Source: Synechococcus sp. CBW1002
GTDB taxonomy: Bacteria > Cyanobacteriota > Cyanobacteriia > PCC-6307 > Cyanobiaceae
Direction: 5' to 3'
Assembly (NCBI RefSeq): GCF_015840915.1
Contig: NZ_CP060398.1
Coordinates: forward strand, 3,224,001-3,288,000
DNA length: 64,000 bases
Part shown: positions 24,267 through 46,848 of the stretch, one piece after another
How positions within the stretch are numbered: position 1 is the stretch's first letter
Layout of the letters: the number at the start of each line of letters is the position of its first letter
Notes under the pieces: generated by a model
What the model saw: only the letters and a program-made list of their open reading frames with translations
What the model was told of the DNA's origin: nothing
Databases searched by the model: none
Program-made: the position numbers and the translations under genes

Positions 24267-24340
24267 TGGCTCGGGGGAGACTTGAACTCCCGACCTTGGG
24301 GTTATGAATCCCACGCTCTAACCAGCTGAGCTACCGAGCC
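24267..24340 (-). tRNA. tRNA-Met (CAU)
   Basis: The complement folds as a cloverleaf: acceptor GGCTCGG / CCGAGCC, D-arm GCTCAGCTGGTTAGAGC, anticodon stem GTGGG with loop ATTCATAAC (anticodon CAT), T-arm GGGAGTTCAAGTCTCCC. CCA is not encoded. The CAT anticodon could in principle be tRNA-Ile2 (lysidine), but the body looks like elongator Met. The 3' end points toward the recombinase remnant. Confidence 0.93.
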
Positions 24341-41909: not shown

Positions 41910-42014
41910 CGGCCCCTGGGCAGACCAGGTTGCAAAGGGGCGTAACACGTTCGGCTCAGGAGGCGATCCGGAGACGAGATCTCGATAAGGTGGTGCGTGC
42001 ACGTGGCAGCAGAA

Positions 42015-42509
42015 ATGAGCGTCGTTCGGGATCTGATCCTCCAGGCCGATGATCAGCTTCGTTATCCCACCGGCGGCGAGCTGCGCTCGATGGTGGACTT
42101 CCTCACCGGAGGCAGCCAACGGCTGTCGATCGTGAAGGTGCTCACCGACAACGAGAAAAAAATCATCGATGAGGCAGCCAAACAGCTGTTCTCCCGCAAG
42201 CCCGATTACGTGGCCCCGGGTGGCAACGCCTATGGCCAGAAGCAGCGTGCCCAGTGCCTGAGGGATTACAGCTGGTACCTCAGGCTGGTCACCTATGGCG
42301 TTCTGGCTGGCAGCACCGAGCAGATCCAGAAGATCGGCCTGGAGGGTGCCCGCGAGATGTACAACAGCCTCGGTGTTCCCATGCCCGGTATGGTCGAAGC
42401 CATGCGCACCCTCCGGGAAGCCGCCCTATCGCTGCTGAGCACTGAGCAAGCGGCTACGGCTGGTCCCTATTTTGACTTTCTGATTCAGGGCATGCAGACC
42501 ACCACCTGA
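42015..42509 (+). CDS. apcD: Allophycocyanin alpha-B subunit
   Basis: The 164-residue phycobiliprotein begins [20 protein letters not shown]. It has the chromophore site region [20 protein letters not shown] with the bilin-binding Cys, and the family segments [20 protein letters not shown]. ApcD is a terminal emitter of the phycobilisome core that passes energy to photosystem I/II. The upstream GTG at 41997 is an alternative but lacks homology. A terminator follows 25 bp after the stop. Confidence 0.95.
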
Positions 42510-42534
42510 AGCACCTGACGGACACACATCTTCC

Positions 42535-42562
42535 GCCGCGTCTCCTACAGGCGCGGCTTTTT
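42535..42562 (+). terminator. Rho-independent terminator of apcD
   Basis: GCCGCG / CGCGGC stem with an 11-nt loop and TTTTT. Confidence 0.85.
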
Positions 42563-42795
42563 CATGCTCTCTCGATCGGGTGACTGGTCAAGGGGCTTCC
42601 CAGGATGAGCACGTCAGGAAGCATCGGCAGGTGATTCGCCCGGAGCACCAGTGTCTCAGCTATCCCGACCAAGTCGCCATATTGGTCTGAACAAGAGACA
42701 CAGCCTGGATGTGTGAGCTGGCTCTGCCGTACAGCCGTCAAGGACCGACATTGAGGCAACGTTCCCGATCCGAGCAAGCCGGCAGAACTGGACGC

Positions 42796-42825
42796 CGCAC
42801 GTTTGACGTCCGCACGTTTGACATC
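42796..42825. repeat. Tandem 15-bp direct repeat
   Basis: CGCACGTTTGACGTC is followed at once by CGCACGTTTGACATC (one difference). Confidence 0.8.
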
Positions 42826-42923
42826 CGGACCCGACGCACGAGTCTCATTAGGGACCATAGACAAGACCCATAGGCGTCTCATTCGGGATAGACAGGAAGA
42901 GAATGGCCTGATTTCGACCTGGC

Positions 42924-42953
42924 CCCGCAGGGGTGCCGGAGACCCCCTGCGGG
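42924..42953. repeat. Perfect 10-bp hairpin
   Basis: CCCGCAGGGG / CCCCTGCGGG arms around a 10-nt loop. Confidence 0.75.
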
Positions 42954-43027
42954 CGCACACGACAACAAGGTCCTGGGGAGGCGAAATCCGAACCGATCAC
43001 CAGTCCGCCATCACCCGCTCTCCGAAT

Positions 43028-43054
43028 GCGTACCTGCTTCAAAAGCAGGTACGC
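43028..43054. repeat. Perfect 12-bp hairpin with 3-nt loop
   Basis: GCGTACCTGCTT-CAA-AAGCAGGTACGC. Looks like a tRNA-Leu(CAA) anticodon arm by eye, but no other cloverleaf arm is present. Confidence 0.8.
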
Positions 43055-43123
43055 AGACTCCCAGAGCACAGTTCCTGACTTGGCTTTCAAGCAGTCAATC
43101 AAGACTTGGACAGTCTGTTCACA

Positions 43124-43143
43124 CCCCACTGGACACAGTGGGG
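43124..43143. repeat. Perfect 8-bp hairpin with GACA loop
   Basis: CCCCACTG-GACA-CAGTGGGG. Confidence 0.75.
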
Positions 43144-43510
43144 GGCGCGTGGGCACGGGCACGCCATCCAGACCGACCCGGAGGTCATCTCCCAGACAAT
43201 GGTGGCTCCAGCAGGGTCTTCAAGCCCGAAGCACAGCCCTGCATCCAGAGCGGCTCGCCTCACCTCTGCATCCCAAGACAGACAAATGGCAGCTGGATTC
43301 CACGATTTTTCTGAATGTCGTGATCAGAATCAGATGAAGAAGCCAATGGAGTTCGCATAAGAATCGATCCAACCCTGCGGAGTCACGATCCAGCTGCAAA
43401 GGACCGAGCAAAGGTCAAGCGAACCACTCAGCCATTCCGAGGAAGAACGAAAACCCATCCCTTCGCAGTAGTCTCACGAGGCCCATTCAAGACTTTGAAT
43501 CAGTCCTGAT

Positions 43511-43561
43511 ATGGGACCCAGTTGAGAAGGTCTAGGCGCATGGTCCCCGACTGAGTCCCAT
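43511..43561. repeat. Long-loop hairpin with a competing pairing
   Basis: ATGGGACCCAGT (43511-43522) and ACTGAGTCCCAT (43550-43561) pair at 11 of 12. TGAGAAG (43523-43529), inside the loop, can also pair with CTTCTCA (43578-43584), so two folds compete. Confidence 0.5.
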
Positions 43562-43865
43562 GGCTGGTCTCGTCCGACTTCTCAGGCGAGATGCATGGAC
43601 AATGCCCGCAACTCCCTCCCCTTAACACCGGCCGATGGTCAACACATCCGGCCCTGAAGGCCCGCCGGGCTCACGAGATCGCATTTCAACCTCTCGCTAT
43701 CGACACGACATTGGACACACATCGGGACAGCCTCAAGACGAACGAGAACCCATGGTCCACGCAACAGGTCTCTGCAGCGGGTCGCTGCAATCGGTCATCC
43801 AGCAGACTGTGCGATCAGCGCTGACGCGAGGTCTTGGCTTGATCCACTCAGCCAGAGCAGCGTTC

Positions 43866-45155
43866 TCAGCTGGATCCGCGGTAGAGCTCCTTGAGCATGT
43901 GATAGGCCTCATTGAGACGTCGCATCACATCCACGGAGCCGCCTGAATCGGGATGATGGAGCACAGCCATCTCGCGGTAAGACTCCCGGATCTGGCGGAG
44001 GCTGAGCTGATGACCCGGTGCTGTTGGCAATTGCAGCAGCTTGAGGGCGCCATGGAGGGTCATCGTGTGCTCCAGGGTGAGGAATGAAGTCCCGGGGCGG
44101 CGCCTGCGAAACCGATGCACAAAACGTCGAATCAACGTCGGAAGGCGTAGCTCCAGGGTGGCGGCACTGAAAGGGTCTTCCAGCAGCCCCGCCATCACCA
44201 TCACCCGCTCAAAACTGGCAGGACCCGCCTCCCAGCTGGGGACAAAGCACCGTACCAATGCACTGGCCAGGGACCAGGTGAACGCCCGTCCCTCGCTCTG
44301 GTCGGCGTGCGGCCAGATGTCCTGAGCCAACCAGACCATGGCGGCTTCGAGCACGGCCTCATTGGGTTCGCTGCCGTAAAGATCACTCCAGTGCTGGGCA
44401 GCTGCCGTGAGGGCCCGCTGAATGGATGCCGCCGGCACCGTCGGCAGGGAATCATCCGTCTGGATCGAGCCAGGCCGGACCCGCAGACTACGCCGCAGGC
44501 GATCGGAGCGGCGCTGAACGAAGCCCGGCAGATCGATACCGCCAGGGCTGCCCCCACTGGACGGTGGAGGAACCTCCGACGGGGCACGGGGCGATGCGAT
44601 CGGATCTCCAGTGGCTCGCAGAGCCACCTGCCTGCGGGGCACCAGCACCAGGGAGCCGCGCTCGTCGAGGGCGGTGCTGAACTCCTCGTCCTCCGGATCC
44701 TCAGGCGCATCCTCTTCTGCAACCAGGTCCTGCGCAGAGTGCCTGCTCCCATCCAGGATCTCTGGCTCCGGTGTCGGCATTCCTGGGGCAGGAAGCGGCG
44801 AGCCAAGCCCAGCCGTGGTCCAGTCGCTCGCCTCATCAGCGGCGCTCCCCAGGTCCTCTGGCGGAGACTGCATCGTCTCGGTGGCAGTCACGTCCGACCC
44901 CACGGTGTCTCTGGGGACTGCCTCCGGGGAGACAGTCCTCACTGGCCAACTCCCGCTGGAGAGTTCCACGACCTCCAGCGTCTCTTCCGGAAGGTCATCC
45001 TCGAAGAGACCCTGCAGCAGCCGCACCAGGATGTCGCCCCGGCTGCGTAGACCCCATTCCCCCCGCAGACTGTCGATCTGGGCGACCAGTTCAACCGGCA
45101 GTTCCAGACTGATCCTGCGCCGCTCTCTCTGGGCCGAGTCCACTACTGGTTCCAC
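43866..45155 (-). CDS. RHH-like N-terminus plus C-terminal J-domain protein
   Basis: The 429-residue protein has a CopG/RHH-like start (RERRRISLELPVELVAQIDS, LRSRGDILVRLLQGLF), a long acidic Pro/Ser-rich linker (about 75-190) and a helical middle domain. It ends with a J-domain (LRQIRESYREMAVLHHPDSG then MRRLNEAYHML) that keeps the HPD triad which stimulates DnaK. I start at GTG 45155, so the gene clears the upstream stop; an alternative start at 45236 would overlap it. A J-domain joined to a DNA-binding-like fold is unusual. Role unknown. Confidence 0.75.
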   Translation of the reverse strand: MEPVVDSAQRERRRISLELPVELVAQIDSLRGEWGLRSRGDILVRLLQGLFEDDLPEETLEVVELSSGSWPVRTVSPEAVPRDTVGSDVTATETMQSPPEDLGSAADEASDWTTAGLGSPLPAPGMPTPEPEILDGSRHSAQDLVAEEDAPEDPEDEEFSTALDERGSLVLVPRRQVALRATGDPIASPRAPSEVPPPSSGGSPGGIDLPGFVQRRSDRLRRSLRVRPGSIQTDDSLPTVPAASIQRALTAAAQHWSDLYGSEPNEAVLEAAMVWLAQDIWPHADQSEGRAFTWSLASALVRCFVPSWEAGPASFERVMVMAGLLEDPFSAATLELRLPTLIRRFVHRFRRRRPGTSFLTLEHTMTLHGALKLLQLPTAPGHQLSLRQIRESYREMAVLHHPDSGGSVDVMRRLNEAYHMLKELYRGSS

Positions 45156-45171
45156 CGACGATGTGATTCGC

Positions 45172-46848
45172 TCAGCGGCCCACAAGGCCGCGCATGATGT
45201 CTTGCTGAGCCTCCACAGCGTCCCGGTAGCGCTCAATCAACGACTGACTGACCCTGACCGGTGGAAGGACCACGGGGACCTGTGTGGCAGCGGCTGCCGA
45301 CCGTGACGGACTGACGGAATGGTTGATCGGGGGAAGGGGCGGGGTCGGCGGCTCCCAGCGATGAGGTCCGGGAGTCACGAGCGGGCGGGGCTGAGCCACA
45401 GCTGGTCGAGGCACCTGAGGACCGGCTGGTTGGACCGCCGGCGCAGGAACCAGGGCGGGGCCATTGTTGGCGACCGCAGGCGGAACAGCAGGTGGCGGAG
45501 CATTCGGACGGGTCACCGATGAACGAGCCAGCTCCAGTTGTCGCTCCCGCTCCTGCACAAGGGCCAACTGGGAGCTGGGCACAACGCTGAGAAGGTGGCC
45601 AGGGGTCGCATCGGCTGGGTAAACCAAGCTCACCCGCACGGTATTGACCACCCCAGGCTGCAATTGCAGGGAGGTGAGCGAGAGGCTCTGACCAGAACGC
45701 ATGCCGACGTGCATTTCCTGCAGACCTTCGGGAGTCGTGACCTGCAGAGAGCCTCGGAAAGCGGTGAAATGTCGGCCACCACTGGGAGACGGATGGCTCA
45801 TCACCAGCTCATACGGTCCATTGCCGGTGAGCTGTAGATCGACGTCGAAGCGAACGCCATAGGTGCCCACATTGTCAAGCGACGAATCGATCATGCGGGT
45901 CGCCAAGGCATTCACCTGCACGTCGCTGGTCCCGAAGTGATGGCGGAATGTGCTGGTCAACGGCACGTGAAGAGGTCCCTGGCTGCCTAGGTCATGACGA
46001 ATGCTGGCCTTGTAGGCATCGCCAAGGGCCACGCCCCCCACCCGGGAAAAAATCTGGCGGTTCTGGATGTCGGCGATGCGACTGAGATAGACCCGACCCG
46101 GAGCCAGACGCCCCTGATCGAGCACCGCCAGGATGTCTCGATCACTGGTGGGGTCCTTCGCCGCCACCACAGCCACCTGGAAGGGACCATCGCTGTGACC
46201 TCGCAGCAGGGCATTGGCAATCCCAAGGGCCGGAAGGGCCGTGTTGAACAGCACGACCCGGCTGCGAGCAGGAATGGTGATCTCATCGGTGAGATTTCGA
46301 TCCAGGCGACCCCGCAGCATCTGAACCGCCGTGGCATCTCCAGGACCCGTGTTCCATGGCCTGGGGCCCAAAGGCTTCACTCCCATCAGATTGTTTGCCA
46401 GATAAGGCGCTTCGAAACTGTTGCGGACCGCACCGTTCTTGAAGCGGATGTGAACGGGCCGCACACCGGGATTGATCAGGATCGCCGCCAGGGTGAGCTG
46501 GGCGCGGCGATCCTGCGGAGAAATGCTCTTGCGGTTGGGGGGGAAATACTTGTGATGCAGGTGCAGGCCGAAGTCTCCGTTGAAGGTGAATTCAGAATTG
46601 CGGAGGGCTTGGCCCGTCTCCGCAGCGATTGAGCTGCCGGGAGTGGTGGTGATCAAGATGCCGGGCCCCTCCACCTCCTCCGGCTGGTTGGAGTGGAGCA
46701 CGGGCACGTTGTTGAAGGTGCCGTTGAGTGGGCGTGCCTGCTGACCAGCCATCAACGCCACATAGGCCGAAGCAGCCGGAGCCTGCAGGACCAGCGCCGA
46801 ACCAAGCAGGACAGCCGAAACGGCTGGCAGGACTGAAACCAGCTGCAT
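45172..46848 (-). CDS. DUF3370-family secreted protein with Pro-rich tail
   Basis: The 558-residue protein has a clear signal peptide (LVSVLPAVSAVLLGSALVLQ, then APAASA). A DUF3370 region follows, typical of cyanobacteria (QQARPLNGTFNNVPVLHSNQ, PEEVEGPGILITTTPGS, FGLHLHHKYFPP). About 150 C-terminal residues are Pro/Ala/Val-rich and end in a helix. Location is probably periplasm or cell surface. The function is not known. ATG 46848 is chosen for the signal peptide; the frame is open further upstream. Confidence 0.83.
   Translation of the reverse strand: MQLVSVLPAVSAVLLGSALVLQAPAASAYVALMAGQQARPLNGTFNNVPVLHSNQPEEVEGPGILITTTPGSSIAAETGQALRNSEFTFNGDFGLHLHHKYFPPNRKSISPQDRRAQLTLAAILINPGVRPVHIRFKNGAVRNSFEAPYLANNLMGVKPLGPRPWNTGPGDATAVQMLRGRLDRNLTDEITIPARSRVVLFNTALPALGIANALLRGHSDGPFQVAVVAAKDPTSDRDILAVLDQGRLAPGRVYLSRIADIQNRQIFSRVGGVALGDAYKASIRHDLGSQGPLHVPLTSTFRHHFGTSDVQVNALATRMIDSSLDNVGTYGVRFDVDLQLTGNGPYELVMSHPSPSGGRHFTAFRGSLQVTTPEGLQEMHVGMRSGQSLSLTSLQLQPGVVNTVRVSLVYPADATPGHLLSVVPSSQLALVQERERQLELARSSVTRPNAPPPAVPPAVANNGPALVPAPAVQPAGPQVPRPAVAQPRPLVTPGPHRWEPPTPPLPPINHSVSPSRSAAAATQVPVVLPPVRVSQSLIERYRDAVEAQQDIMRGLVGR

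Follow-up and report, generated by a model that had tools for sequence, protein, structure and literature searches.

What is maintained in the noncoding DNA between apcD and the convergent gene for a J-domain protein in Synechococcus sp. CBW1002, and does it act as RNA or as DNA? In the window, the 64,000-nucleotide stretch of this genome that was analysed, a first-pass annotation had marked positions 42563-43865 as hairpin-dense and proposed that they encode undescribed small RNAs or form a structured DNA element. The gap itself was confirmed, running for 1,356 bases from the apcD stop (42509) to the end of the J-domain gene (43866), with the stem of the apcD terminator, followed by TTTTT, standing just ahead of the marked interval (Table 1). 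None of the seven open reading frames tested in or overlapping the gap had a Pfam match, which bears out the earlier impression that no protein frame is convincing, and a hidden protein was rejected. The reported tandem 15-mer was present (42795-42824, copies 93% identical), as were direct repeats, although the latter were weak. Stem richness held up, while the count of four stems did not: counting perfect stems that span 8 bp or more and enclose a loop of 3-12 nt, we found three, the longest of 13 bp rather than 12. Dinucleotide shuffles of the gap (n = 200) gave a mean of 0.23 stems and a maximum of 2, so the density of stems is above chance. Local fold z-scores on the two strands were -5.0 and -3.8 for 42983-43102, and -2.9 and -3.4 for 43463-43582.

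Table 1. Features of the apcD-J locus and the candidate recombinase (window positions, except for the recombinase)
Feature	Position	Strand	Remarks
apcD-type phycobilisome gene	41997..42509	+	left convergent neighbour; PF00502, E 3.5e-58
intrinsic terminator of apcD	42535..42557	+	gap boundary, outside the site
perfect stem	42924-42953		10 bp, GC-rich
perfect stem	43027-43055		13 bp, 3-nt loop
core palindrome, putative dif core	43028..43054	.	GCGTACCTGC-N7-GCAGGTACGC; two inverted half-sites, short crossover region
spacer between core and boxes	43055..43106	.	putative bend or accessory-protein region
first arm-type box, TGGACA	43107..43112	+	starts 52 bases past the palindrome
perfect stem	43124-43143		8 bp
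second arm-type box, TGGACA	43130..43135	+	23 bp (about two helical turns) past the first
J-domain gene	43866..45236	-	right convergent neighbour; ribbon-helix-helix-like N-terminus
recombinase orthologue of the window's genome	C1:52960-54444		reading frame, locus L177

A conserved palindrome with boxes on one side

To find out which parts of the gap recur in relatives, we set it beside its counterparts at 18 other loci. With G001, the closest relative, the window shares a few short stretches of the gap, and beyond the genus only the 13-bp palindrome aligns. The rest of the window's gap is unaligned outside the genus; the 15-bp tandem repeat and the other stems belong to no stretch aligned with G001 or with more distant relatives. 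The 10-bp stem at 42924-42953 and the stretch 43463-43582 likewise both fall outside the parts that align with the sister species.

All 19 apcD-J gaps examined contained a palindrome of this pattern, and a sequence-free test of palindromicity placed the site among the best 27-mers in 14 of the 19. Further loci with the J gene carried it in 14 of 20 cases; four of the six without it end within 400 bases of the J gene, whereas L027 (G018) and L049 extend further. Across 400 Cyanobiaceae genomes, the strict pattern matched 176 and the reversed-pattern control none. As for a dif site, a single copy per chromosome is typical: of the 176, 172 have exactly one match and four have two, and the window's own genome has one. 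Some of the 224 genomes without a strict match are incomplete or carry variants, and others may truly lack the site. Relaxed searches recovered the variant GCATAACTG in genus g79 and GCGTCACTG in G024 and G034. The loose pattern matched none of seven genomes of genus g18, and a search around the J gene of its member G018 also failed to find the site; at three mismatches, all eight g18 genomes exceeded the controls, but no clean palindrome was seen among the matches listed.

Several loci showed related features. Just downstream of the J gene of G018, L193 (G018:C2:600000-619000) contains AT-rich repeated palindromes with GACTAATTA-like words. A second dif-like palindrome lies on a small contig of 10,387 bases (L209, G164:C20) whose genes, judged by eye, include capsid-like, primase/helicase-like and sigma-factor-like ones. 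L210 (G178:C14:112000-131000) holds a second palindrome 83 kb from the first, near genes that by eye resemble a T7-type RNA polymerase and an integrase. G195 has two extra palindromes 9.4 kb apart (L220 and L221, C1:1036572 and 1046026) and another at 336876; boxes of the pair start near 74-75, and the two may flank a mobile module.

We then examined the symmetry of the core in 49 distinct 27-mers, collected by a script that required at least 17 of 18 half-site matches plus CTG and left positions 2 and 6 free. Because the scripts demand it, the constancy of half-site positions 1-9 is partly by construction. Position 2 was symmetric in 45 of the sequences, compared to 35.6 expected from independent arms, and position 6 in 32, compared to 19.2. 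Covariation at these two positions would be expected from an RNA helix and from a symmetric protein site alike. Towards the centre, positions 10 and 12 were no more symmetric than chance, position 11 was barely above it (18 against 14.1), and position 13 was asymmetric, matching its partner in 4 of the 49 where 14.6 were expected. Two protein half-sites flanking an asymmetric crossover region account for this profile better than an RNA helix under selection. A dif site is likewise made of inverted half-sites with an asymmetric middle, which directional strand exchange requires.

A one-sided TGGAC motif is paired with the palindrome and had been missed in the first-pass annotation. By word count, TGGACA is enriched in the gaps (37 compared to 11.5), almost exclusively on the J side (37 of 41 across 19 gaps), owing to a near-fixed arrangement of boxes beside the palindrome: they have one orientation, lie on one side, usually begin 50-56 bp from it, and repeat 11 or 21-23 bp further on. 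Reading outward, TGGAC was present at 48-56 in 55 of 67 distinct cellular sites, where shuffled flanks averaged 0.79 and never exceeded 4. Eight of the 12 sites without a box in this interval are extra or mobile-looking copies or come from incomplete bins (L155, L162, L163, L169, L172 and L219-L221), several of them with boxes starting near 74. Boxes at 45-90 were confined to one side in 56 of 59 chromosomal sites, with two sites having them on both sides and one having none. At least two boxes occurred on one side in 48 of the 59 distinct chromosomal sites (maximum of 1 for shuffled flanks), at spacings of 11 (25 times), 21-23 (19 times), 5-6 (eight times), and single cases of 12, 18 and 30. 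These spacings are mostly helical, and the boxes lie about 50-85 bp from the core. Repeats of the arm type, phased and at an almost constant distance from the core, are a hallmark of lambda-type att sites. Across 58 oriented sites, the spacer shows weak conservation of A at +0 and from +8 to +10, and is rich in G and T near +26 to +31.

Two other words are enriched in the apcD-J gaps, GTCTCA/TGAGAC (59 compared to 12.3 expected, 16 of 17 gaps) and CAAGAC (48 compared to 11.9, 15 of 17 gaps). Mapping GTCTCA and CAAGAC by side and strand within the gaps gave no clear pattern, and they were kept out of the model.

Outside the family, the pattern search returned one palindrome match in G040. That genome also gave one match to the reversed-pattern control, so a lone palindrome match there is weak by itself; the match is notable through its boxes, since inspection of the flank afterwards revealed TGGAC at +52 and +63, on one side only. 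A match in G045, also from outside the family, has one TGGAC at +49 and looked coding-like by eye, and was left uncounted. There was no pattern match in the 17 remaining genomes of other families.

A dif site is expected at the replication terminus, at the switch in strand skew. We located dnaN in eight site-bearing genomes of our choosing, and the palindrome was roughly opposite it in all eight, at 0.385-0.555 of the circle (G000 0.555, G004 0.511, G010 0.511, G011 0.505, G024 0.485, G031 0.519, G034 0.465, G227 0.385). The genomes used have synteny in common and therefore do not amount to independent tests. Among five genomes scanned contiguously around the site, three had the keto-skew change point within 4 kb of the palindrome (G031 -4.0 kb, G010 +3.0 kb, G024 -2.75 kb). 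In G034 the change point was 40 kb off, without a clear sign change, and the window's own genome had weak skew, with the change point 57 kb away. Over the 20 kb around the site in G011, GC skew went from +0.045 on the left to -0.040 on the right, and TA skew did not flip within this interval; in samples from around the G011 chromosome, each of the two skews was mostly positive on one replichore and negative on the other. Collectively, the conservation of the palindrome, its phased boxes and its place at the replication terminus support the part of the original proposal that invoked a structured DNA element.

A candidate recombinase and viral copies of the site

A dif site is acted on by a chromosomal tyrosine recombinase, and at least one PF00589 match was present in all 28 genomes that were at least 90% complete. 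Candidates were fetched from 16 Cyanobiaceae genomes, and all of these but G012, which is 69% complete, had an orthologue of the G011 recombinase (15 of 16, local identity 54-66%); orthologues in G040 (46%), G044 and G046 were 46-50% identical. Five residues, R244, K271, R336, H359 and Y368, are invariant in all 18 recombinases and are presumably catalytic, judging from the usual motif; Y333 replaces the first histidine of the usual HxxR motif. Known Xer family profiles matched the protein at scores far below their cut-offs, and its best sequence match in the PDB was XerA (4a8e). At ~390 aa, it appears to differ from a simple Xer, which has core-binding and catalytic domains only, in having an extra conserved N-terminal region, for which Arm-DNA-bind_2 gave a weak match in 4 of the 18 host recombinases (best E 0.01) and a match in 1 of 16 viral relatives (E 6.6e-4).

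These viral relatives were not recovered with a single-recombinase query, and an alignment-based search yielded 34 at 28-45% identity. Comparison of host and viral profiles indicated homology over nearly the full length (E 1.3e-89). A model of one viral relative (pLDDT 88.7, pTM 0.61) begins with a helix, three strands and a helix, and matched XerA (top match), an integron integrase, lambda Int (353 alignment columns) and XerH. Together with the weak Pfam matches, this model makes it probable that the N-terminus of the host recombinase binds arm-type DNA.

FtsK_SpoIIIE (PF01580) exceeded its cut-off in none of 25 Cyanobiaceae genomes, with two weak matches below it, whereas 8 of 14 control genomes were above it. 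Because the FtsK translocase of the FtsK-dependent Xer systems and the usual dif layout are both missing, we set the site apart from that family. The recombinase also occurs in G018 and G007, where no site was recognised. From co-occurrence and domain logic, we infer that this enzyme and the site form a pair.

The palindrome was also found in a viral collection, in at least 120 stretches compared to 7 for the reversed-pattern control. Terminase or portal proteins like those of T7-like cyanophages are encoded at 55 of the 120 loci, and some of the remaining stretches may be host DNA. Distal boxes at 40-80 accompany 52 of 102 distinct viral sites, and in 69 of the 102 a box lies no more than 8 bases from the core, on one side or both. 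Searching for the GCATAAC variant identified 30 stretches of the collection, with a one-sided box at 42-53 in 19 of 25 readable sites, a count that has no shuffle control. Integrase queries detected no tyrosine recombinase near viral sites in the fetched slices (1.4 to 15 kb). In AP013539, a complete environmental phage, the site occupies noncoding DNA next to the terminase gene, and none of the 49 features, many of which are hypothetical, is annotated as an integrase or recombinase; another complete environmental phage record, AP013538, has no site. In 13 cultured T7-like cyanophages, the 3 kb to either side of the terminase gene (less where a record ended) contained no site, and no site was found at the 34 viral loci encoding a relative of the recombinase, several of which are cut close to the gene. 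We consider that T7-like cyanophages probably use the host recombinase at their copies of the site.

Weighing the explanations

The conserved part of the gap is, with good probability, the chromosome-dimer-resolution site of this lineage, a dif-type site built like the attachment arm of a lambda integrase. Recombination at the site is inferred from its anatomy, as is each step of the mechanism that we propose. Recombinase protomers would dimerise on the core, contacting its two half-sites with their core-binding and catalytic domains, while the DNA between core and boxes would bend back so that the N-terminal domains could grip the TGGAC boxes. Synapsis of two such complexes would be productive on a dimeric chromosome carrying the sites as direct repeats, and strand exchange in the asymmetric centre would then resolve it into two monomers. 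Directionality, which FtsK provides elsewhere, would come from the one-sided boxes, and these could favour direct repeats, hence resolution. Against this reading stand G018 and G007, where the recombinase occurs and no site was recognised; genus g18 and the further genomes without the strict pattern; L049, which has the J gene and no site; the distant skew change points of G034 and the window's own genome; the unflipped TA skew of G011; G227, in which the site is off-centre at 0.385 of the circle; and, for the enzyme, the tyrosine at Y333. The fuller proposal, in which a housekeeping, arm-binding recombinase carries out FtsK-free dimer resolution of the lambda-integrase type and T7-like cyanophages lacking an integrase rely on the host enzyme to integrate transiently or to resolve their genomes, seems to us evenly poised between right and wrong.

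The closest competitor would have no recombination at all, the palindrome being bound instead by a terminus-organising or fork-arrest protein of the MatP or Ter kind, possibly the J-domain protein itself. That protein has matches to DnaJ (E 2.6e-4) and RHH_1 (E 0.01), both below cut-off, and its ribbon-helix-helix-like N-terminus is a conserved stretch in an alignment of 35 sequences. Of 37 Cyanobiaceae genomes, 25 have a full J homologue and 24 of these show the site, which was seen in none of the other 12. Most of the 12 were scored by the strict pattern only and several are incomplete, and the tally is uncorrected for relatedness. The terminus position would suit a protein of this kind as well, as would the enrichment of GTCTCA in the gaps. 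However, matS and fork-trap sites occur in many copies per genome, whereas the palindrome has one, and a core with an asymmetric centre and one-sided phased boxes is the layout of an integrase site, one that recurs in the viral copies. G018, with a J gene and no recognised site, likewise argues against a binding site for the J protein, and we judge this explanation improbable. Under the dif-type reading, the J-domain protein is a possible accessory factor.

Could the site be a mere phage attachment site (attB), kept by frequent integration and serving no housekeeping role? The viral stretches that carry the palindrome, at least 120 of them, and the extra copies on mobile-looking DNA in some genomes would be accounted for, but a mere target would not be expected to keep its boxes and position across many Cyanobiaceae genera, and the chromosomal copy itself carries boxes; this possibility appears more doubtful still.

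The suggestion of undescribed small RNAs found no support, as the gap had no Rfam match, no sigma-70-like promoter match and no terminator 3' of the palindrome. Nothing in the gap reached Rfam gathering scores in the covariance check, and a relaxed search (E up to 10) gave six matches, all far below those scores; with neither threshold yielding an acceptable match, a small RNA was rejected. In a scan of 42400-43900 for intrinsic terminators, the apcD terminator alone qualified, and the palindrome was rejected as a terminator because no T-run follows its stem. The sole Rfam match in the window at gathering scores was a tRNA gene at 24267-24340 on the minus strand. That the gap encodes one or more small RNAs, or that the palindrome terminates transcription, is therefore very unlikely: stem density above that of shuffles and the low fold z-scores favour an RNA, and covariation at stem positions 2 and 6 is compatible with a helix, but pairing at positions 10, 12 and 13 is not maintained, the window's gap outside the palindrome does not align beyond the genus, and both the T-run and the Rfam match are missing.

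Relation to known recombination systems

The dif-type site that we favour shares several properties with XerCD-dif, XerS-difSL and XerH-difH, namely a single short inverted-repeat site at the replication terminus, a tyrosine recombinase, an asymmetric centre, and use by mobile elements as well. It differs from them in the lack of FtsK in Cyanobiaceae, in the one-sided phased arm-type boxes, and in an enzyme of ~390 aa with an additional N-terminal region. Its core sequence also departs from the known dif consensus. The site spans 27 bp, is centred on a base, and has the half-site GCGTAMCTG, rather than the 11-6-11 bp layout given in the available parts of PMC2958812 and PMC5357621. Like this site, archaeal XerA-dif is FtsK-independent according to the same portions of these two papers, and XerA is both the best PDB match of the recombinase and the top fold match of the viral relative. 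A partial precedent for a one-sided flanking motif is found there: in the consulted sections of PMC2958812, the predicted dif of one archaeon has a conserved 13-bp sequence on one side only, and predicted dif sites of Thermococcales are flanked by inverted repeats. In contrast, archaeal sites have 11-bp arms and a 6-bp spacer, with no TGGAC-type phased boxes described in those sections, and enzymes of the Xer subgroup are simple and without an arm-binding domain, as stated in the portion of PMC8138268 available to us.

Two systems from mobile elements share the arm-like part of the architecture. The lambda att site, with its core and P' arm-type sites, likewise combines a core inverted repeat with phased arm-type repeats tens of bp off on one side, and the three-strand-plus-helix N-terminal domain of lambda integrase resembles that of the modelled viral relative. 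Unlike att, the cyanobacterial site is a single, housekeeping-like chromosomal copy near the terminus rather than at the end of a prophage. The accessory sequences of the plasmid sites cer and psi are one-sided too. They bind ArgR and PepA, whereas the cyanobacterial repeats probably bind the recombinase itself. Resolution at cer and psi is also FtsK-independent and aided by accessory sequence (for cer, in the available part of PMC5357621).

Earlier work offers few landmarks for cyanobacteria. A 2011 survey predicted dif in none of five single-chromosome cyanobacteria (PMC3025954), a 2016 comparison found xerC to be rare in the phylum (PMC5101192), and in Oscillatoriophycideae Xer is replaced by a distinct Cyan subgroup (PMC8138268), each according to the excerpts at hand. 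For Prochlorococcus MED4, the terminus or dif position is marked from earlier work, with no sequence given in the accessible text (PMC10913375). Within the portions seen of the open-access literature, we found no dif sequence for cyanobacteria. The palindrome now offers a terminus marker for genomes with weak skew.

If our interpretation is true, it would break a published rule, laid out in the part of PMC8138268 that we consulted, by which simple tyrosine recombinases serve dimer resolution and mobile-element enzymes arose through the gain of an arm-binding domain. It would also give a reading for a motif found on many viral contigs, and would thereby bear on the puzzle of cyanophage integration without stable prophages, described in the available text of PMC8776855. 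With a defined site, defined boxes and one candidate enzyme, the proposal is testable in culture, and it bears on how dimeric chromosomes may be separated without FtsK in some of the most abundant photosynthetic cells.
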